64,000 nt of DNA from Bifidobacterium psychraerophilum (GTDB lineage Bacteria > Actinomycetota > Actinomycetes > Actinomycetales > Bifidobacteriaceae): NCBI RefSeq assembly GCF_000741705.1, contig NZ_JGZI01000010.1, positions 496,001 to 560,000 of the forward strand. Direction: 5' to 3'. Shown here piece after piece: positions 5,701 to 14,094 of the stretch. Numbering within the stretch: the first letter of the stretch is position 1; every line of letters begins with the position of its first letter. Under the pieces are notes generated by a model. It did not search any database and was not told the origin of the DNA. It saw only the letters and a program-made list of their open reading frames with translations. The translations under genes and the position numbers were made by a program.

Positions 5701-7865
5701 GTACTGAGATGCTGCTCGCGCAACAGCGATGCGAGGTTGCCACGGGCAAAACGATCAAGCCCGTCCTCGATCAACCTTGCTTCGGTGGCCTGATCGAAGT
5801 CCGATTCCGATTCTTCCGGGTCTTTCCGCCGCAGGGCGACGTCATCATCCGTGGACAGGAGACCTTGGCTCACCTCGCGCAGGAATGCGCCCAGGGACGC
5901 GCCATATTCGGCGTCTCTGCCGACGCCTTCGCCATGCCAGAACGGGAGTCGTGCGGAACGCCCGGGCGCTGGAAGCACTATGACCCTGTCGCGTGTGATC
6001 TCGCGGATCTGCCAGGTCGATGTTCCCAGGGTGATGACATCGCCGACGCGTGATTCGTACACCATCTCCTCGTCCAGCTCCCCCACCCTCCGGGAAGGGG
6101 AGGCGGAATCGGTCTCGGGAAGGAGAACGCTGAAACTGCCTCTATCCGGGATGGTGCCGCCTGAGGTAACCGCCAGGCGTTGGGCACCCGGTCTTGCGGT
6201 TATGGAGGCGCTCTCCCTGTCCCAGTTCAATATCGGCCGGAATGCAGAGAAATCAGCACTCGTGTACCGCCCCGAAAGCATGCCCAGCACCGCCTCGTAC
6301 ATATTCCGGCTCAACCGGGCGAAGGGTGCGGCACGCCTGACCCTTGCGTACCATTGCTCCGCGTCCAGTTCCCCCATCGCCGCTTCGGCAACCGTCTGCT
6401 GCGCGAGTATGTCCAAAGGATTGAAGGGAAGACGTATGGCCTCTATGGCACCCGAACGCATACTCTCGATGATGGCCGCCGTACCGGCGATCTGTCCGCG
6501 CGTCAGCGGGAAGAAGACCGCATGCGACACCCCTCCGACACGATGATCGGCACGTCCCACGCGCTGCACCGCGCTGGAAACCGACAAGGGCTCGGCGATC
6601 TGCACCACCATGTCGACGGAACCCATATCAATGCCCAGCTCCAGGCTCGATGTGGCGACCACACAACGCAGACGGCCCGCTTTGAGATCCTCCTCGACGC
6701 GTTTGCGCCGTTCCTTGGACACCGAACCATGATGCGCCATCGCGATCGCGTCCTGATCCTCACCGGCCACGACCATCTGGCTGCTCGGCCCGATCGTCGA
6801 CGGGAAATGCCGGGGATCGCCGGATCCGGAACGGGCGGCGGCCGCAGGCCCTGTGCTGCCGAGCGATTGGGCGTGAAGGTCGTTCAGCCGCGCCGTCAGC
6901 CTTTCGGCCAGACCTCGGGAATTCACGAAGACAAGGGTCGTGCGGTGCCGCAGTACGATATCGAGCACCTGCCGCTCGATATCGGGCCAGATGGAAGCTC
7001 CTGAACGCTCGTCGTCGCTCGCACTGGTGGTGAGATCACGCATATTCGCCAAGGGTTCGACCACGCTGAGATCCATACGGGCATCCCCCGGTGCCGAAAC
7101 GATACGGACCGGCTGGGTCCCGCCGAGGAATCGTGCCACCTCGTCCAGCGGGCGCACCGTCGCGGAAAGACCGATGCGTTGAATGGGTTGTTGTGCCAGG
7201 GAATCCAATCGTTCCAGGCTCAGCGCGAGGTGCGCACCGCGTTTGTTGCCCGCGAGCGCATGGATCTCATCAACGATCACCGTATCCACGGTTTCCAGGA
7301 TGCCGCGGGTTTTGGAGGTCAGCATCAGGTACAGGGACTCAGGTGTCGTCACCAGTATCTCCGGCGGGTGGGAGGCAATCGCCCGGCGTTGCTTCGGCGT
7401 CGAATCGCCGCTGCGCACCGCGACACTGATCTCCCTGACGTCACCGCTGTCAAGAGAGGACTGCGACTTCTCCGCCAGTTCCATAATGCCCTGCAAGGGA
7501 TGGGAGAGGTTCCTCGCCACATCGGCTCCGAGCGCCTTCAACGGGGAGATGTACAGCACCCGCACGCCTGCGGGCCGCCGCTTCGATGAAGGCGCCGAGG
7601 CCTGGTGCTCGACGAAGAGTCGATCTATCGCGTACAGAAAGGCCGCCAGGGTTTTGCCCGATCCCGTGGGAGCGCTGACCAAAGCGTTGCCGCCGCTCGC
7701 GATGACCGGCCAGGCCTCGCGTTGGACTTCTGTCGGTGTGCCGAGGCTGCGCCTGAACCAGCTTGCGGTGAGTGCCGAGAAGGTCGAAAGAGCGGAATCC
7801 ATATCTCCATGCTCGCCCTGTGCCACGACCGTGTTCACTGCACGCACCTGCAACGATCCATCCAT
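2748..7865 (-). CDS. lhr: Lhr-like ATP-dependent superfamily 2 helicase
   Basis: This encodes a very large (about 1705 aa) SF2 DEAD/DEAH-type helicase of the Lhr family, which unwinds DNA or RNA-DNA hybrids and is linked to DNA repair. Near the N-terminus are the Q-motif-like TEVQREAWP, Walker A APTGSGKT, VDEIHALAGNKRG (DEIH box), SATVRPLDEVARFLGG and the motif VI region QRVGRADHR. The long C-terminal part corresponds to the winged-helix and Lhr-specific domains of the full-length (about 1500-1700 aa) form. The start ATG overlaps the stop of the upstream MFS gene by one base (TGATG), suggesting translational coupling. An in-frame ATG at 7802, preceded by GGCGAG and GGAGAT, is an alternative start. 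Low-complexity linkers rich in Gln and Gly (for example EQGQTQRQAQGRSQGQ) interrupt the C-terminal half. Confidence 0.92.
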   Translation of the reverse strand: MDGSLQVRAVNTVVAQGEHGDMDSALSTFSALTASWFRRSLGTPTEVQREAWPVIASGGNALVSAPTGSGKTLAAFLYAIDRLFVEHQASAPSSKRRPAGVRVLYISPLKALGADVARNLSHPLQGIMELAEKSQSSLDSGDVREISVAVRSGDSTPKQRRAIASHPPEILVTTPESLYLMLTSKTRGILETVDTVIVDEIHALAGNKRGAHLALSLERLDSLAQQPIQRIGLSATVRPLDEVARFLGGTQPVRIVSAPGDARMDLSVVEPLANMRDLTTSASDDERSGASIWPDIERQVLDIVLRHRTTLVFVNSRGLAERLTARLNDLHAQSLGSTGPAAAARSGSGDPRHFPSTIGPSSQMVVAGEDQDAIAMAHHGSVSKERRKRVEEDLKAGRLRCVVATSSLELGIDMGSVDMVVQIAEPLSVSSAVQRVGRADHRVGGVSHAVFFPLTRGQIAGTAAIIESMRSGAIEAIRLPFNPLDILAQQTVAEAAMGELDAEQWYARVRRAAPFARLSRNMYEAVLGMLSGRYTSADFSAFRPILNWDRESASITARPGAQRLAVTSGGTIPDRGSFSVLLPETDSASPSRRVGELDEEMVYESRVGDVITLGTSTWQIREITRDRVIVLPAPGRSARLPFWHGEGVGRDAEYGASLGAFLREVSQGLLSTDDDVALRRKDPEESESDFDQATEARLIEDGLDRFARGNLASLLREQHLSTGIVPDDRNIVVERCRDEEGDWRIIVHSPYGRRVHEPWAMAISARIRESYGHDGAVYAADNGIVLRMPDSESTLAARELLAFDTEALEKLLRSQIGQSALFAARFRECAARALFMPRQDPGRRMPLWQQRLRASQLLGAARSVKNFPLVLESTRECLQDVYDIPGLKALMDSINGGAVRLLDRQTATPSPFAASLLFGYTGAFLYAGDAPQAERNASTLSVDPEVLEGLLGDIDVTELLDDRVMAESEAELQRTADGRHGHGAEGIADLLRVLGPLSSEEVAERWDPQIAHGDMPAVRQEDRAAALEDDLGWLKHRHRIVELAFGGHEYWVNAQDAQALDGGHRDAALRDIVLRYAKTHAPFSTRTIADRFALDHGESMRILGDLQLHESLLDLDGGEDADDGPDLDRRRWLHSSVFRILRSRSLRRIRRSIAAVGADVYQDFLLRRQGVGAPGQGVYQGESGLLRVIEQLEGLALPAAVWESDVFVSRVRDYSPGMLDALLASGEVIWLGSSEQGQTQRQAQGRSQGQALMQRIAFYLADSPLLQGRLHMTLRRIAMNDRDAQAPSGEGGGAERQSHDPSLREHVLRLLSSGGAFLSNQLAPVGSDDSLVSHELWSLVWEGRLTNGTFAPVRAHLEENAPMHRGRRRGTARAMRARPGLRSGLRAMMSGHAELSGLWRAPFTTEQMQDSLADASLSSGRMSTEATEGATERLHEQATAAYLIVLVESLLDRYGVISPAVVNGESIEGGFSALYPVLRRMEEHGSVVRGMYIQGFGAAQFANADTVNLLRSNGVANGDDRSQAALAEGPGRGSGKPHADSPDARQGIGQDCVVLDTSDPANLYGSALDWPASAVMGGATVPSETVSSEAVPSRHAASEDAAGQVESSGSFKASRRFGSAVVIVDGRAVLYANPRGHRLLLFAGADESDQRQAFAALAAYFQRHAKASITFSQINGKALLSDPAMRAMMQDAAFVPVPQGMRLYR

Positions 7866-9124
7866 CAGACCGGCGAGGTCTCGTGCGTGTGGACGACCTT
7901 CCCTATGTCATGCCTGAGTTTCACGCCTTGCAGGCCTTCATGCATGACGATCATCAGCGCCAGCAATCCAAGGAGATACCAAGGGAAGAGACCGATATCA
8001 ATACCGTTGGCGATCATCCCGAACACAGGTGGCATCAGCAGAGAACCGGTGTATGCGCTGGCCATCTGCACGCCGACGATGGCCTGCGAGCGGCTTGCAC
8101 CAAACAATTCGGGTGTCGAATGGATCACGCATGGGTAAACGGGCGCGCAGCCCAATCCCAGAACCACAAGTCCGGACAGCACCACGACGTGCGCATCGAT
8201 CGGCAGCAGCACCACCACCAAGCCGATCGCCATCACACAGCAGCCGATGCGGATCATCGTCGTATCGTTGAAGCGCATCGTCAGGAATCCGCTGAGCGCC
8301 CTGCCAACGGTGATGCCGATGTAGAACATGCTCGCCCACGTCGCGGCCTGCTCCACCGATATTCCCCGGTGCATCACCATGTAGCTGCTGGCCCACAGGC
8401 CTGCCGTGGTCTCTATGGCGCAATAGCAGAACATCATCACAAAGACCTGGCTCGCACCCGGGATCCCGATGATCTCCCGAAGGCTGAGACTCGTTCGGCG
8501 TTCAGCACCCGCGCCGTCAGCGGCAGGATTGCCTGACTCCCCACTTCCGTCGGGATGTGTTTCCTCGGCAGTCACCCTTCGCTGCTTCCACAGCGGAAGA
8601 CTGAGCAGCAGCACGGCCGTAAGAGCCATCTGCAGCAGCGCGATGATCCGGTATCCCCCAGCCCATCCCTGACCGCCCGTCAATGCGAAGCCCATGATGT
8701 ACGGTCCCACCGAGGCACCGACGCCCCACATGCAGTGCAGCCAGCTCATATGTCTGCTGGTGTAGTGCAACGCGACGTAGTTGTTCAGCGCGGCATCGAC
8801 GCCACCGGCACCCAGACCATAGGGTATGGCGGCAAGACACAACTGCCAGTAACCGGTGGAGAAGGAGAAGCCGAGCAGAGCCAGGGCCGTGAGGCAGACC
8901 GAGCACACGGTGACCTTACCCGCACCGAAACGCAGCGTGATTCGATCACTGAGCAGAGCGGAGATGATCGTACCGAGGGCGATGATAACCGCGACTCCGC
9001 CCGCGTAGGAAACAGGGACCCCGAAGCTTTTCACCATCGAAGGCCAGGCCGAGCCCAGCAGCGAATCGGGCAGACCAAGACTGATGAAGGCAAGGTAGAT
9101 AACGGCAAGCAGGAGATTGACCAT
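7865..9124 (-). CDS. MFS transporter
   Basis: This is a roughly 419-residue integral membrane protein with about twelve hydrophobic segments, the size and pattern of a major facilitator superfamily permease. Helix-rich stretches start right at the N-terminus (VNLLLAVIYLAFISLGLPDS), followed by the loop SDRITLRFGAGKV, which resembles MFS motif A between helices 2 and 3. A hydrophilic central loop rich in Gly, Glu and Ala (HPDGSGESGNPAADGAGAE) separates the two six-helix halves. I chose the ATG at 9124 (MVNLLLA) because AAAGGGAA lies about 12 bases upstream; a longer form from 9148 would put that ribosome site inside the gene. The overlap with the helicase gene suggests co-transcription, but I see no functional link. 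The substrate cannot be told from sequence; the LGLPDSLLGSAWP opening resembles sugar-type (FucP/BSC-like) members only loosely. Confidence 0.85.
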   Translation of the reverse strand: MVNLLLAVIYLAFISLGLPDSLLGSAWPSMVKSFGVPVSYAGGVAVIIALGTIISALLSDRITLRFGAGKVTVCSVCLTALALLGFSFSTGYWQLCLAAIPYGLGAGGVDAALNNYVALHYTSRHMSWLHCMWGVGASVGPYIMGFALTGGQGWAGGYRIIALLQMALTAVLLLSLPLWKQRRVTAEETHPDGSGESGNPAADGAGAERRTSLSLREIIGIPGASQVFVMMFCYCAIETTAGLWASSYMVMHRGISVEQAATWASMFYIGITVGRALSGFLTMRFNDTTMIRIGCCVMAIGLVVVLLPIDAHVVVLSGLVVLGLGCAPVYPCVIHSTPELFGASRSQAIVGVQMASAYTGSLLMPPVFGMIANGIDIGLFPWYLLGLLALMIVMHEGLQGVKLRHDIGKVVHTHETSPV

Positions 9125-9216
9125 CGAGTGCTGATTCCCTTTCAACATTGCAAACGAACCCCATTGTCACAGCGCCCACCATCCTACCGAAGGCTGTCGA
9201 AGAGGCCCATGGGATC

Positions 9217-9435
9217 TCAGTCCTCATCCTCATCACTGGTGTATTCAAGAATGTCCGCGGGCTGGCATCGCAGGACCCGGCACATCTCATCCAGCGTGGA
9301 GAAACGGATCGCCTTCGCCCTGCCGTTCTTGAGCACGGAGACATTGGCCGGCGTGATGCCGATGGCCCGTGCGAAGTCATTGACCGACATCCTCCGACGG
9401 GCAAGCATCACATCGAGATTCACCCGGATAGCCAA
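9217..9435 (-). CDS. Cro/C1-type HTH regulator (YozG-like)
   Basis: This is a 72-residue protein that is almost entirely one XRE-type helix-turn-helix domain. The recognition region is VNDFARAIGITPANVSVLKNG followed by IRFSTLDEMCRVLRCQPADIL, the usual pattern of YozG-like stand-alone regulators that sit beside DUF2975 membrane proteins. It starts with TTG directly after the TGA of the DUF2975 gene (no bases between them), so the two are almost certainly translated from one message; the published-style reading M-A-I-R assumes TTG initiation. The acidic tail (TSDEDED) is unusual for such a small DNA-binding protein. I infer that it controls this locus through the repeat array at 10055-10175. 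Confidence 0.87.
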   Translation of the reverse strand: MAIRVNLDVMLARRRMSVNDFARAIGITPANVSVLKNGRAKAIRFSTLDEMCRVLRCQPADILEYTSDEDED

Positions 9436-9987
9436 TCAGATCACCGCCTCAAGCTCGACATGCTGCTTCGTGGCGGTTACCAGCAGGCCGCGCATCACCA
9501 CCACCAGAAGGATGAAAGCCACTTCGATCACCACAGCGACCAGCAGGGCCAACAGCAACGGTAAGGGCCCGACATCGGCGATGAAGGCGGCATGGATCAG
9601 CAGACCGAAGGTCAGCACGGCGGATGCCATCGCAACCCATATGATCGCATCCACCCACAGGAAGGAACGATCACTGAACACACTCCCCTGTCCGACCATT
9701 GACAGCAGGCGCCACAGCGCGAGCAGACCAGCCTCGAAACATGCGATGATCAGCAGCGCGGTAATCAGATACGGCATGCGCAGATATGCATAACCAGGCT
9801 CGCGTTGTGCGACATCGCCCGAAAGGGTGGGAAGCAACCAGCACTGCGAGATGAGCCCCAAAGCAAGCATCACCACGATGAAGGCCTTGAGCACCCCGAT
9901 GACCCAACCTTGGAGTGACGGCCTGGTCCGTTGCCGCCCCGCTGGCGCTTCGTATGCATCCCTTGTGTACGATTCCTCAGACCTCAT
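9436..9987 (-). CDS. DUF2975-family membrane protein
   Basis: This is a 183-residue protein with four predicted membrane segments (around residues 28-48, 73-93, 111-132 and 142-166). The layout, and the motif GSVFSDRSFLWVDAIIW between helices 2 and 3, match DUF2975 proteins, which are typically paired with a small Cro-like regulator as here. The family function is unknown; the pairing suggests a membrane sensor or modulator of its HTH partner. The start is supported by AAAGGCGAG seven bases upstream. The gene faces away from the DUF4173-type membrane protein gene at 10237, with a repeat-rich spacer in between. Confidence 0.85.
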   Translation of the reverse strand: MRSEESYTRDAYEAPAGRQRTRPSLQGWVIGVLKAFIVVMLALGLISQCWLLPTLSGDVAQREPGYAYLRMPYLITALLIIACFEAGLLALWRLLSMVGQGSVFSDRSFLWVDAIIWVAMASAVLTFGLLIHAAFIADVGPLPLLLALLVAVVIEVAFILLVVVMRGLLVTATKQHVELEAVI

Positions 9988-10054
9988 GATGAAGCTCGCC
10001 TTTCATGCCGCATCGCCCGACATTGCCATGTATCCGGTATCTGATCACACACTC

Positions 10055-10175
10055 TATCGCATTTCAATGTCTATATATCGAATATCAATTCTTTCATATT
10101 GAATATCAATGTTATCAGGAATTCTGTAGGAATTGTGGAAAATCGACTTTCAATCGTTATCTATCGAAATTCGAT
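10055..10175. promoter_or_regulatory. Phased 21-bp repeat array (putative operator)
   Basis: The AT-rich spacer between the divergent DUF2975/HTH and DUF4173 genes contains related 14-mers starting at 10055 (TATCGCATTTCAAT), 10076 (TATCGAATATCAAT), 10097 (TATTGAATATCAAT), 10141 (AATCGACTTTCAAT) and 10162 (TATCGAAATTCGAT). The steps are 21, 21, 44 and 21 bp, about two (or four) helical turns, so all copies would lie on one face of the DNA. The last copy also contains the inverted repeat ATCGAAATTCGAT. The positions are read directly; the role as an operator bound by the HTH protein is inference. Confidence 0.7.
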
Positions 10176-10236
10176 ATATTCTCGAATGAACGGACCCACC
10201 TGGCGCACAGGGGGCACACCCACGAAGGAGCATGTG

Positions 10237-11682
10237 ATGGCACACAGCACGCAGCCGCCGGAAGCGGCGGAGCGAACCCCGGATCCACAGGAACCACGGC
10301 TGGAGGGAGACGAGCGAAGGGCACAACCCTCCTGGGCCGCACCGGAGGCACCCGACCCGAAACAGCCCGCGACGGCGGACGCCACCGTCCCAGGCGAGCC
10401 CACCCTGCAACGCGCGTACATCCTTCTGGCAGCCGCCCTTGCGGCCGCGATAGGCGCCGACCGCCTGGTCTTCGCCTCCTTCGAGTCACGGTATGCGCTG
10501 AGCGCATACGCGCTGTTCTGGATCGCCTGGACCGTGCTGCAGACAGGGATCTTCTGGTCCGCCGGCGCGAGACGTCCGCTTTCCTGGCTTGCCGCGTCAT
10601 CGACCATCCTGCTGGGTGCCTGGCTGATCCTCGCGGATACAGGCCGGGCGTATGCCGGCAATCCCGAGTACATGGCACTATCCGTTCTGGCCATACCCGC
10701 TCTTGCCATGATGCATATCCAGATCTCGACACATGACTTCGATCCCAGGCAACCGGGACGCGCTGCTGTGCGCTGGATCTCCGGCTGGGTCGTTCAGCCG
10801 TTCACCGCCCTGCCAAGACTCGGCACGCCCCTATCCGCACTGTGGAACTCCTCAAGCCCGGATAGGAAGAAATCGGCACTGCGCACCGTGCTGCTCTCCA
10901 TGCTGTTCGGCATTCCGGTGATCGCCCTGCTCATCGCGTTGCTGGCTTCCGCGGATGTCGTTATCGACTACGCCGTCAATACCATCATCGGCGGCATCGA
11001 TCTGATGCCCCTGGTGACGCATACGGCGATCATCATCGCCCTCACCGCCTGCTGCTATTCCTTGCTATGGAATCTCAACGCGCGCAACATCGATCGCAGC
11101 ACGCAGACCCAGGATGCGGACAGGGACCACGCGCCGCGCACACGGCCATTCGACCCGACGGTCTGCATCATCATCCTCGCCGCCGTGCTCGGCCTGTATC
11201 TTGCATTCAGCGCCGTCCAGTTCACCTTCCTCTTCGCGCAGCAGGGATTACCGGACGGCTTCAGCTACGCCGAATATGCGAGACAGGGCTTCTGGCAGCT
11301 GTTGGCCGTCGCCGCGCTCAACTTCCTCGGCTTCGGATTGGTGCTCAATTACGCACCACGCAAGCCCATGCTCAATGTGATGCTTGCGGGACTGGTCGTC
11401 GCCACAGGGGTGGTGCTGAGCTCTTCCGCACTGCGACTCAAGCTGTATATCGACGCATACGGCCTGACCTGGCTGCGACTGTCCTCCATGCTCTTCATCA
11501 TGCTGCTGGCCGTGGCGCTCATACTCTGCGTCGCGCGCATCCGCTTCGAGGCGACACCCCTGATCGCCGTCTGCTGCGCACTCTTCGTCGTCTGGTTCCT
11601 GATCCTGGGGTACATCGACCCTGGCCGTCTCATCGAGGAATACAACCTGGCGCACGGCTTCTTCTCGGTCACACCGGACTGA
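10237..11682 (+). CDS. DUF4173/DUF4153-type polytopic membrane protein
   Basis: This is a 481-residue protein with a polar, Pro/Glu-rich N-terminal tail of about 60 residues followed by roughly a dozen membrane helices. The segments LLASADVVIDYAV, FSYAEYARQGFWQLLAVA and KLYIDAYGLTWLRLSSM match my knowledge of the DUF4173 (DUF4153 superfamily) signature, including the conserved YAEYARQGFWQL and YGLTxLR stretches. Function is unknown; in other bacteria such proteins accompany DUF2975/YozG-like pairs, as here. ATG 10237 is preceded by GAAGGAG six bases upstream, so longer in-frame extensions into the repeat array are unlikely. It converges on parE with only six bases between the stops. Confidence 0.82.
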   Translation: MAHSTQPPEAAERTPDPQEPRLEGDERRAQPSWAAPEAPDPKQPATADATVPGEPTLQRAYILLAAALAAAIGADRLVFASFESRYALSAYALFWIAWTVLQTGIFWSAGARRPLSWLAASSTILLGAWLILADTGRAYAGNPEYMALSVLAIPALAMMHIQISTHDFDPRQPGRAAVRWISGWVVQPFTALPRLGTPLSALWNSSSPDRKKSALRTVLLSMLFGIPVIALLIALLASADVVIDYAVNTIIGGIDLMPLVTHTAIIIALTACCYSLLWNLNARNIDRSTQTQDADRDHAPRTRPFDPTVCIIILAAVLGLYLAFSAVQFTFLFAQQGLPDGFSYAEYARQGFWQLLAVAALNFLGFGLVLNYAPRKPMLNVMLAGLVVATGVVLSSSALRLKLYIDAYGLTWLRLSSMLFIMLLAVALILCVARIRFEATPLIAVCCALFVVWFLILGYIDPGRLIEEYNLAHGFFSVTPD

Positions 11683-11688
11683 GCGAAC

Positions 11689-14094
11689 TCAGGTATCGAT
11701 TTTGCTGCGATCGAAATCGTCGGCATTCTCCACGATGAACTGCTTGCGTGGAGGCACATCATCCCCCATGAGCAGTGAGAACACATCGGAGGCATGCTCG
11801 GCATCCTCCATGCGGATCCTTCTGAGCATACGGGAACGCGGATCCATCGTCGTATCCGCAAGCTGATCGGCATCCATCTCGCCAAGACCCTTGTAACGCT
11901 GGATATCCTCATGGAAATCGATGCGCTGCTTCTTCAACTCGGCCAGTTTGCCGGCCAGCTCGTCATCCGAATAGGTATAGATGTATTCGCCTTTGCGTTT
12001 GCCCGCCAAGGCGATGCGGTGCAGGGGCGGCACGGCCGCATACACATGACCGGCCTCGACCAGGGGCCGCATATAGCGGTAGAACAGCGTGAGCAGCAGA
12101 ATGCGGATATGCGCACCATCCACATCCGCATCGGTCATCATGATGACCTTGTTGTAGCGCGACTGAGTGATATCGAAGCTGGCACCCGAACCTGCGCCGA
12201 TCACCTGGATGATGGCCGCGCATTCCTTGTTCGAGAGCATCTGGGAGACCGAGGCCTTCTGCACGTTGAGAATCTTGCCTCTGATCGGCAGGAGTGCCTG
12301 GAACATCGAGTTACGGGCAGCCTTGGCGGTACCGAGTGCCGAATCACCCTCCACGATGAACAATTCCGCGATGTCGTCATTGCCGGGCTGCGAGTCGGAG
12401 AGTTTGGCCGGCATCGAGGCGGATTCCAGCGCGTTCTTGCGACGCGTCACCTCTTTGGTTTTCCTGGCCTGCACACGGGCGTGCATCTCGCCGACGATCT
12501 TCTCAAGCACACGCGAGGACTGCTCTTTGAAGCCACGCTTTGAACCGGAGATCATCTCGGAGAACTGCTTATCCGTCATCCGCGTGACAATCGGCTTGAC
12601 CTGTGCCGTACCGAGCACATCCTTGGTCTGCCCCTGGAATTGCGGCTCCGCGATGCGTGCCGTGACCACGGCCACAAGCCCGGCCAGTACGTCGTCACGC
12701 TCGATCTTCGAGTGCGAATCCCTGAGATTGACCTTGAGCTTACGCGCATTGCTTTCGACGGTTTTGCGCACCTGACGGGTCAGGGCGTTGAGGAAGCCGT
12801 CGACGTGCATGCCGCCGCCTGGCGTCTCCACGACGTTGACGAAACTCAGCAGGGTGGTGTCGTATCCGTTGACCCAGCGCAGGGCGATATCCACACCGCA
12901 GGTGCGTCGCACCTTCTCCGCGTGCAGCTGCCCGCCTTCGACGACCTTCTGCGTCTCCTCCTCATACTCAGCCTCACCCGAGATGTGCCAGATATCGTTG
13001 ATCGCCTCGCCTTTCGACAGGAAATCAACGAAGTCCACAACACCTCCCGAATGCAGGAATTCCTGCACACGTGGATGATGGAGCCCGGATTCCCTGTGAA
13101 GGCCGGTGCTCACCGCGTCTGACTCCGCTGCATCATCCTCTGCGTCGTCATCGGACCGTGCTTCGTCCGAGGCCATGGCATCCGATTCGGCGTCGCCTGA
13201 TAAGTCGCCGTCCATCTCGTCGGGTGCGGCCTGATCGGCGCTTTCCGCGACGGATGTGCCGCTCTCCGGCCCATCCGAGGGGCCCGCTTCGCGTACTGCG
13301 ACATCCGACATGGCATCGGCGTCGATGACGTCCTGCGCCGCGATGTTCTCGTTGAGGTTCTCAGCGGTGTTCTCACCAGTGTTCTCAGCAATGTTCTCGT
13401 CGATGACGGTTATCTTGAGGCCGGGAACCAGGAAGCTGGTCTGACGCACCCGCTCGATGAGCTGTTCATAGCTGAAAGTGGCCGTGCTGTTGAAGATCTC
13501 CGGATCCGCCCAATACCGGATACGGGTACCTGTCCGTTTCGCTGGTACCTTGGCGACGACCCTGAGCTCAGTGGGTTTGTTGCGTCGTGTGCGCTTGAAT
13601 GGGGCATCCGGTGAGGGATTCCCGTCCGCGGTGTCTTCGTAGACACCGGGGTGACCTTGCTTGAACTCCATACGGTAGGTTTTGCCGTCACGGTCCACCT
13701 CGACGTCGAAGCGTGCACTCAGGGCATTAACCACCGAAGACCCGACTCCGTGCAAACCGCCGACGGCGTTATACGAGGAATTGCCGAATTTCGCACCCGC
13801 GTGAAGCTTCGTAAGCACCACTTCGACGCCGGTAAGCCCGGTTTTCGGCTCCACATCCACCGGGATGCCACGCCCGTTGTCGGCCACGGTGATGGAAGCA
13901 TCCTGATGCAGCGTCACCTCGATGTTCGTGCAGGCACCGGCCAAGGCCTCGTCGACGGAATTGTCGATGATCTCCCAGAGACAGTGCATCAGACCCTGGC
14001 TATCGGTCGTCCCGATATACATGCCAGGCCGTTTGCGCACGGCATCAAGCCCTTCCAGTATGGTCAGACTCTCCGCACCGTAGGATTTCGCCAT
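11689..14094 (-). CDS. parE: DNA topoisomerase IV subunit B (ParE-type)
   Basis: This is the ATPase subunit that drives strand passage by topoisomerase IV with ParC. The GHKL ATPase motifs are present: LWEIIDNSVDEALAG, DNGRGIPVD, and GGLHGVGSSVVNALS. The Toprim part is also clear: FIVEGDSALGTAKAARN and TDADVDGAHIR. At 801 aa it is longer than typical ParE (about 700 aa) because of an acidic, disordered insertion at about residues 232-343 between ITVIDEN and FLHSGGVVDFVDFLS; the insertion starts with tandem four-residue ENxx repeats. The start ATG follows GGAGAG closely. It is transcribed divergently from nothing nearby and lies just downstream of the sigma factor gene on the same strand, 105 bp away. 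Confidence 0.95.
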   Translation of the reverse strand: MAKSYGAESLTILEGLDAVRKRPGMYIGTTDSQGLMHCLWEIIDNSVDEALAGACTNIEVTLHQDASITVADNGRGIPVDVEPKTGLTGVEVVLTKLHAGAKFGNSSYNAVGGLHGVGSSVVNALSARFDVEVDRDGKTYRMEFKQGHPGVYEDTADGNPSPDAPFKRTRRNKPTELRVVAKVPAKRTGTRIRYWADPEIFNSTATFSYEQLIERVRQTSFLVPGLKITVIDENIAENTGENTAENLNENIAAQDVIDADAMSDVAVREAGPSDGPESGTSVAESADQAAPDEMDGDLSGDAESDAMASDEARSDDDAEDDAAESDAVSTGLHRESGLHHPRVQEFLHSGGVVDFVDFLSKGEAINDIWHISGEAEYEEETQKVVEGGQLHAEKVRRTCGVDIALRWVNGYDTTLLSFVNVVETPGGGMHVDGFLNALTRQVRKTVESNARKLKVNLRDSHSKIERDDVLAGLVAVVTARIAEPQFQGQTKDVLGTAQVKPIVTRMTDKQFSEMISGSKRGFKEQSSRVLEKIVGEMHARVQARKTKEVTRRKNALESASMPAKLSDSQPGNDDIAELFIVEGDSALGTAKAARNSMFQALLPIRGKILNVQKASVSQMLSNKECAAIIQVIGAGSGASFDITQSRYNKVIMMTDADVDGAHIRILLLTLFYRYMRPLVEAGHVYAAVPPLHRIALAGKRKGEYIYTYSDDELAGKLAELKKQRIDFHEDIQRYKGLGEMDADQLADTTMDPRSRMLRRIRMEDAEHASDVFSLLMGDDVPPRKQFIVENADDFDRSKIDT
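13345..13398 (-). repeat. 12-bp tandem repeat inside parE
   Basis: Five copies of GTTCTC spaced exactly 12 bases apart on the plus strand (13345, 13357, 13369, 13381, 13393) encode successive Glu-Asn-x-x tetrapeptides (ENIA, ENTG, ENTA, ENLN, ENIA) at the start of the acidic ParE insertion. The repeat keeps frame, so copy-number changes would lengthen or shorten the linker without breaking the enzyme. Confidence 0.85.

Follow-up and report, generated by a model that had tools for sequence, protein, structure and literature searches.

Putative membrane-coupled regulator pairs and the locus in Bifidobacterium psychraerophilum

In its working, the closest known system to the locus described here, a gene for a DUF2975 membrane protein joined to a gene for a small helix-turn-helix (HTH) regulator in Bifidobacterium psychraerophilum, appears by analogy to be CylR1/CylR2 of Enterococcus faecalis, in which a small repressor is paired with a suspected membrane protein, the two genes sharing one promoter that overlaps the divergent promoter of the target (PMC3709268; this paper and the others cited are drawn on through excerpts). 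In concept and logic, the LytTR regulatory systems such as HdrRM and BrsRM would be closest, with the opposite expected sign. These are widespread, autoregulated two-gene operons of a regulator and a membrane inhibitor, and their repeats are two 9-bp elements, usually separated by 12 bp, which gives 21 bp from start to start (PMC6193735). We analysed a stretch of 64,000 nucleotides from B. psychraerophilum (contig NZ_JGZI01000010.1, positions 496,001–560,000; hereafter the window), in which a 249-bp spacer (9988–10236) separates the DUF2975–HTH operon (minus strand, 9217–9987) from a divergent DUF4153 gene (10237–11682) and carries five copies of a short palindrome (Table 1). In the reading that we favour, with a probability of roughly 0.7, a dimer of the HTH protein would bind this array and repress both its own operon and DUF4153, governed by DUF2975 through a conserved C-terminal helix. 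Comparison of loci shows the operator and its phasing, ties it to the HTH gene and, in three gene arrangements, to DUF4153, and also shows the gene overlap.

Gene pairs of the same kind appear in a 2009 survey (Makarova et al.), Table 2 of which contains 32 pairs of Xre with a ‘YoaS-like, a membrane protein, likely permease’ that were then set aside (PMC2701414). A Streptomyces cluster table also has a DUF2975 gene next to an HTH gene (PMC7827011), and the YozG branch has been termed barely characterised (PMC12376442). A literature search, mostly outside subscription journals, gave no account of an operator, array or targets of DUF2975–HTH pairs: in the excerpts found, DUF2975 is merely named in a table or legend, and passages on YozG/YoaS (including PMC4326333 and PMC9239279) likewise contain neither operator nor array.

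Table 1. Features of the DUF2975–HTH/DUF4153 locus (window positions)
Feature	Sequence	Position	Strand	Remark
HTH regulator, Cro/CI-type, HTH_26, 72 aa		9217..9435	-	PF13443, E 7.2e-23
DUF2975 membrane protein, 183 aa		9436..9987	-	PF11188, E 5.4e-24
Operator 1	ATCGCATTTCAAT	10056..10068		exact ATYGN5CRAT
Operator 2	ATCGAATATCAAT	10077..10089		exact ATYGN5CRAT
Promoter-like TTGATA-17-GATATT for DUF2975–HTH, inside operators 3 and 2		10081..10109	-	weak: one in 9000–12500, shuffles give 1.4
Operator 3	ATTGAATATCAAT	10098..10110		exact ATYGN5CRAT
Operator 4	ATCGACTTTCAAT	10142..10154		exact ATYGN5CRAT
Operator 5	ATCGAAATTCGAT	10163..10175		exact ATYGN5CRAT
DUF4153 membrane protein, 481 aa		10237..11682	+	PF13687, E 2e-61

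Operator array in the spacer

A sequence-only reading of this stretch had described five related 14-mers spaced 21, 21, 44 and 21 bp between divergent genes, and the sites, their spacing and the gene order were all confirmed. Inside each 14-mer, one base in from its start, lies an imperfect 13-bp palindrome, ATYG-N5-CRAT. The five exact sites of the spacer region (310 bp) were reached by none of 20000 dinucleotide shuffles, and the six sites found there with one mismatch allowed were reached by 23 of 20000. The window as a whole has 14 exact sites, of which nine are scattered outside the spacer. Moreover, among window sites with at most one mismatch, every pair that is 21, 31, 42, 44 or 52 bp apart falls within 10012–10175. 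Since 44 bp corresponds to 4.19 helical turns, phase is kept within the group of three sites and within the group of two, and the groups stand about 70 degrees apart; thus, the earlier statement that every copy faces the same side of the helix holds strictly within each group and only roughly over all five copies.

The spacer is AT-rich and its flanking genes are GC-rich, which would suit an AT-rich structural element or a chance repeat family without a specific binder. Such an origin is scarcely credible, as dinucleotide shuffles fail to reproduce the array and the half-sites are constant across loci while the middle bases vary; it is further disfavoured by the recurrence of the site upstream of HTH operons in other phyla.

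Conservation in Bifidobacteriaceae

The comparison set comprised 189 genomes of the family, with that of the window as G000. An initial DUF2975 scan of the genome contigs found no relative; the DUF2975 protein search gave matches in 65 of the 189 family genomes and in 3 of the 27 genomes of the genus. Sixty-six loci were fetched, our own included, and both DUF2975 and the HTH gene are present in 62 of them, from 61 genomes; four weak DUF2975 matches (G117, G149, G035 and G186) were dropped before the counts. The HTH protein is 60–83% identical in the loci of the 61 relatives. Altogether, the 62 loci contain 142 exact sites, against a shuffle mean of 5.4 and a maximum of 12 in 200 shuffles, and 60 of them have at least one, in line with the expectation of the sequence-only reading that the array would be conserved in related genomes. 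An exact pair of sites 21 bp apart is found in 33 loci (shuffle mean 0.01), and in 46 when one mismatch per site is allowed (0.14). Adjacent sites lie 21 bp apart in 48 cases, followed by 31 bp (11 times) and 52 bp (nine times), which correspond to 2.95 and 4.95 helical turns, all other distances occurring once or twice. Taken over all sites, the prevailing distances are 21, 31, 42 and 52 bp. Furthermore, 105 of 120 site-pair distances between 13 and 110 bp deviate by at most 1 bp from a multiple of 10.5, with 23.5% expected by chance.

The distance from the DUF2975 stop to the HTH start is −1 to +2 nucleotides in 60 of the 62 loci. As previously read from the sequence, the HTH gene of the window starts with TTG immediately 3' of the TGA stop of DUF2975; this is the only non-ATG HTH start among the 62. 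In the two exceptions, L087 (genome G083) and L091 (G054), the DUF2975 frame is broken ahead of the C-terminal motif, which lies in another frame, and the HTH gene and operators are kept.

Linkage to DUF4153

PF13687 was matched in 53 of the 189 genomes, 50 of them above the cut-off; the matches in G162, G171 and G174 fell below it and were left out of the DUF4153 set. DUF4153 adjoins DUF2975–HTH in 30 of the 62 loci, is divergent in all 30, and each of these has at least one exact site. Twenty further DUF4153 genes were fetched, comprising nine unlinked genes, ten in an operon form and one partial gene. The unlinked genes, in genomes with DUF2975–HTH elsewhere, have exact sites upstream in 9/9 cases (23 sites; shuffle expectation 0.74), at positions 0, +31 and +52 in six of the nine. 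The operon form, DUF2975–HTH–DUF4153, occurs in ten genomes without a match in the DUF2975 protein search: an HTH protein 49–58% identical to our own is encoded upstream of DUF4153 in 10/10, the open reading frame (ORF) ahead of it is DUF2975 by Pfam in 10/10, and sites lie in front in 10/10 (shuffle expectation 0.70), paired at 22 bp in nine. Sites are therefore present at 19/19 of the unlinked and operon-form DUF4153 genes, and the putative operators stay with DUF4153 through three gene arrangements. The partial gene (a 257-aa open frame in G064) has neither HTH nor site.

This third gene bears on whether DUF2975 might be a membrane toxin and the HTH protein its autorepressing antitoxin, with the array serving ordinary antitoxin autoregulation. 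In their reply to a reviewer, the authors of the 2009 survey allowed that pairs with membrane proteins could be new systems; they discarded the Xre/membrane pairs on the ground that no known type II system had a membrane component (PMC2701414). Against a toxin–antitoxin pair, the operators also precede DUF4153 in three arrangements. In addition, G054 and G083 keep the HTH gene and sites with a broken DUF2975, a state that fits a lost toxin equally as well as a lost partner. Overall, we consider a toxin–antitoxin function improbable.

Genome-wide profile and joint loss

A profile of operator pairs (34 bp, from 40 pairs in 36 family loci) was searched at E <= 0.01 with strict filters, and HTH genes were called at E <= 1e-12. 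It matches 65 of the 189 genomes, namely 64 of the 88 with the HTH gene and one of the 101 without it (G108). Thirty-six genomes contributed rows to the profile; among the 52 HTH genomes that contributed none, 31 matched (hand count). Within the genus, matches are found only in the three species that have the module; the HTH of G011 and G018 is more distant, and neither genome is matched by the profile. In ten genus members without the module, no HTH, DUF2975, DUF4153 or major facilitator superfamily (MFS) neighbour was found in the approximately 4 kb after the topoisomerase gene, which is directly followed by an Lhr helicase gene in four of the ten; the exact sites of module-free members number five, scattered over 40.9 kb, which is not above the window background. 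The comparison thus reveals the joint loss of array and HTH gene that the sequence-only reading had named as support. Conservation and joint loss together favour its description of a compact, self-regulated membrane module with operators for both promoters, for which we infer autoregulation and cooperativity, a sensing role being conjectural.

The match in G108, a genome with no HTH at E 1e-12, is a point for the view that the sites are bound by another regulator and the HTH gene is merely a neighbour. This is distinctly improbable given that the sites track the HTH gene, the sole DNA-binding gene compared, over genomes, arrangements and phyla. In the genome of the window, the profile gives four matches at E < 0.2, all in the spacer; no further paired target was found, the best match outside the spacer having E 0.4 (150 of 466 candidates scored).

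Several other occurrences were observed. In G101 (L200, 2173–2206), a gene with an ABC_tran domain (Pfam, 1.9e-34) has in front of it an operator pair that does not adjoin the HTH gene, and in G073 (L199, 2238–2271), a pair likewise remote from the HTH gene has a gene context resembling that of L200 by eye. A second, more distant HTH_26 subfamily is present in the same genomes (matches at E ~1e-25), for example at L206 (1232–2139), where the ORF ahead of it matches DUF2975 below the threshold (4.7e-5). In L202 (2291–2316), from a genome without the HTH gene, two exact sites 13 bp apart lie at an ORF of 199 aa whose match to VUPS is below the threshold.

The operator in other phyla

HTH relatives are common: a profile search of GTDB genomes, with one genome per species, gave at least 585 encoding stretches, and 22 of the 198 genomes in an evenly drawn phylum sample have the HTH at E <= 1e-18. 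From the best 80 of the at least 585 stretches, 79 loci were obtained (40 Firmicutes, 27 other Actinobacteria, nine bifidobacteria and three others). In 71 of these 79, an ATG ORF of 140–215 aa ends at the HTH start, and all seven such ORFs scanned with Pfam, including those of the three others, are DUF2975. An exact site lies 420–750 bp upstream of the HTH start in 35/39 Firmicutes (shuffle expectation 1.1), 23/26 non-bifidobacterial Actinobacteria (0.7), 2/3 others (0.1) and 9/9 bifidobacteria (0.7); two loci with short upstream DNA, one from Firmicutes and one from Actinobacteria, were left out. Bacillus mojavensis (L116), a relative of B. subtilis, is among those that carry the site. Across phyla, the site is positioned ahead of the ORF that precedes the HTH gene. 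The best secondary matches, with at most two mismatches, are 21 and 42 bp upstream in Firmicutes (17/35 and 11/35); in Actinobacteria, they are 21 bp on either side (+21/−21; 13/23 and 10/23). We propose the upstream operator ATYGN5CRAT, present here and across phyla, as a shared feature of DUF2975 plus HTH_26 pairs. DUF4153 relatives were also observed behind DUF2975–HTH in Clostridia, namely in L128 (1690–2409, a Clostridiales metagenome-assembled genome; tblastn E ~1e-16) and L132 (4720–5418, Blautia; ~1e-15), and the partnership may therefore reach beyond bifidobacteria.

A −35 hexamer falls on operator bases 2–7 in 27/35 Firmicutes (at least 8 of 12 consensus bases) and in 8/23 Actinobacteria, and in Firmicutes this position fits repression. 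Alternatively, the HTH protein could be a LytTR-like autoactivator that DUF2975 keeps inactive and that, once freed, binds the array and, by positive feedback, activates its own operon together with DUF4153. In LytTR systems, a membrane inhibitor does go together with direct repeats ahead of the −35 element (PMC6193735), and the secondary sites of Firmicutes are found 21 and 42 bp in front of the site overlapping it. However, the −35 hexamer itself is inside the main Firmicute site, the weak promoter match of our locus sits within operators 2 and 3, and in several bifidobacterial loci TTGACA and TATAAT-like hexamers are found on either side of a site. Activation therefore seems to us unlikely, though well worth keeping in view.

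More broadly, DUF2975–HTH pairs may constitute an undescribed, phylum-spanning class of membrane-coupled switches, a Cro-type counterpart of the LytTR systems with one ancient operator code (ATYG-N5-CRAT in two-turn phase), that in Bifidobacteriaceae would have captured DUF4153 as a fixed partner, whose genes keep the operators through three arrangements; we see the chances of this wider proposal as even. The cis-regulatory code as such is real, apparently ancient and tied to a common, little-studied regulator–membrane pair. A defined operator makes this unstudied pair assayable and its targets listable, and naming DUF4153 as the likely regulated partner links two domains of unknown function.

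Protein models and proposed mechanism

The AlphaFold2 (AF2) model of the HTH protein has a predicted local distance difference test (pLDDT) score of 86.1. Across 38 HTH sequences from several phyla, no variation occurs at N31, L35 and K36, which lie in the modelled recognition helix, or at A40, K41, A42 and R44 after it, in keeping with a fixed operator. The nearest solved structures (Foldseek) include SaPI2 Stl, CylR2 and VanUg, and the match to CylR2 (2xiu_A; template modelling score 0.77 by query, 14% identity) identifies a CylR2-like small Cro fold. The AF2 model of DUF2975 (pLDDT 90.9) has four long helices, the last spanning residues 142–182, and gave no match among solved structures at E <= 0.001. 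Residues 157–183 are the best conserved stretch in 58 DUF2975 sequences, which were chosen via their HTH, and this C-terminal tail, presumably on the cytosolic side, may be the contact for the HTH protein.

We infer dimer binding, cooperativity, repression, contact between the two proteins and a signal as follows. The 72-aa HTH protein would bind as a dimer to the 13-bp ATYG-N5-CRAT. As the copies are 21 bp, or two helical turns, apart, neighbouring dimers would lie on one face of the DNA and could bind cooperatively. The array spans the control region of both the DUF2975–HTH operon and the divergent DUF4153 gene, and repression of both by the HTH protein is most likely. The genes of DUF2975 and the HTH protein abut or overlap, and DUF2975 most likely holds or releases the HTH protein through the conserved C-terminal helix, and this would answer the state of the membrane or envelope.

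A number of observations weigh against this reading. In the family, 16 of the 62 loci lack a 21-bp pair even when each site may have one mismatch, and L042 and L060 have the gene pair and no exact site. In the wider set, only 19 of 79 loci have two sites 21 bp apart with no more than one mismatch each, so that the second copy is usually degenerate in loci from outside the family. The profile does not match 24 of the 88 HTH genomes, nine of which have 22-bp pairs that an ungapped profile misses, others having a more distant HTH, and in G073, G101 and G132 the match does not adjoin the HTH gene. These genome counts are not independent, owing to the kinship of the genomes and to the use of the same loci in building the profile, and the Fisher p of 6e-29 ignores both. 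Six unpaired exact matches to a stricter site pattern lie outside the spacer in the genome of the window, and single-site targets may thus exist. As for the promoters, consensus scans did not fix their position in bifidobacteria, where no promoter offset relative to the operator stands out, and the further sites upstream of −35 in Firmicutes would allow activation.

Genes of the locus and its surroundings

Pfam assigns DUF2975 and HTH_26 to the adjacent genes of the operon, which is accordingly a DUF2975 plus HTH_26 (YoaS/YozG-type) pair; the 72-aa regulator is presumably ‘YozG-like’. NCBIfam gave no name for the HTH, DUF2975 or DUF4153 protein. The divergent gene had been labelled DUF4173, an assignment rejected here: PF13687 (DUF4153) is its sole Pfam family at E <= 0.001. 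Both DUF4153 and DUF4173 have been judged unrelated to Cache sensors (PMC4822843). An Rfam scan of 9900–10350 gave no match, and no near plasmid match was found. An MFS gene (7865–9148) adjoins the module, and a 65% identical relative lies beside an unlinked DUF4153 in G094 (L178).

Comparison with known systems

YozG/YoaS-type pairs are the same kind of gene pair as DUF2975–HTH, and differ in that operator, array, regulon and mechanism are absent from the excerpted accounts of them. SdpR of Bacillus subtilis is an ArsR-type regulator. It resembles the proposed arrangement as an autorepressor that is sequestered by a polytopic membrane protein, SdpI (PMC1626106), and differs in its protein families and in having a known ligand. 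CylR1/CylR2 shares with our locus a small Cro-like repressor, a membrane protein and a divergent target, and CylR2 is among the best Foldseek matches. To our knowledge, no phased array is known for CylR1/CylR2. The differences are the 14% identity to CylR2 in the fold match, the three predicted transmembrane helices of CylR1 (PMC3709268) and the target, which there is a toxin operon and here is DUF4153 rather than a lantibiotic or cytolysin gene. The LytTR systems, in turn, combine a LytTR domain with direct repeats upstream of −35 and activation, whereas the regulator here, HTH_26 by Pfam and without a LytTR DNA-binding domain, is a Cro-type HTH protein whose palindromes lie over the promoter.

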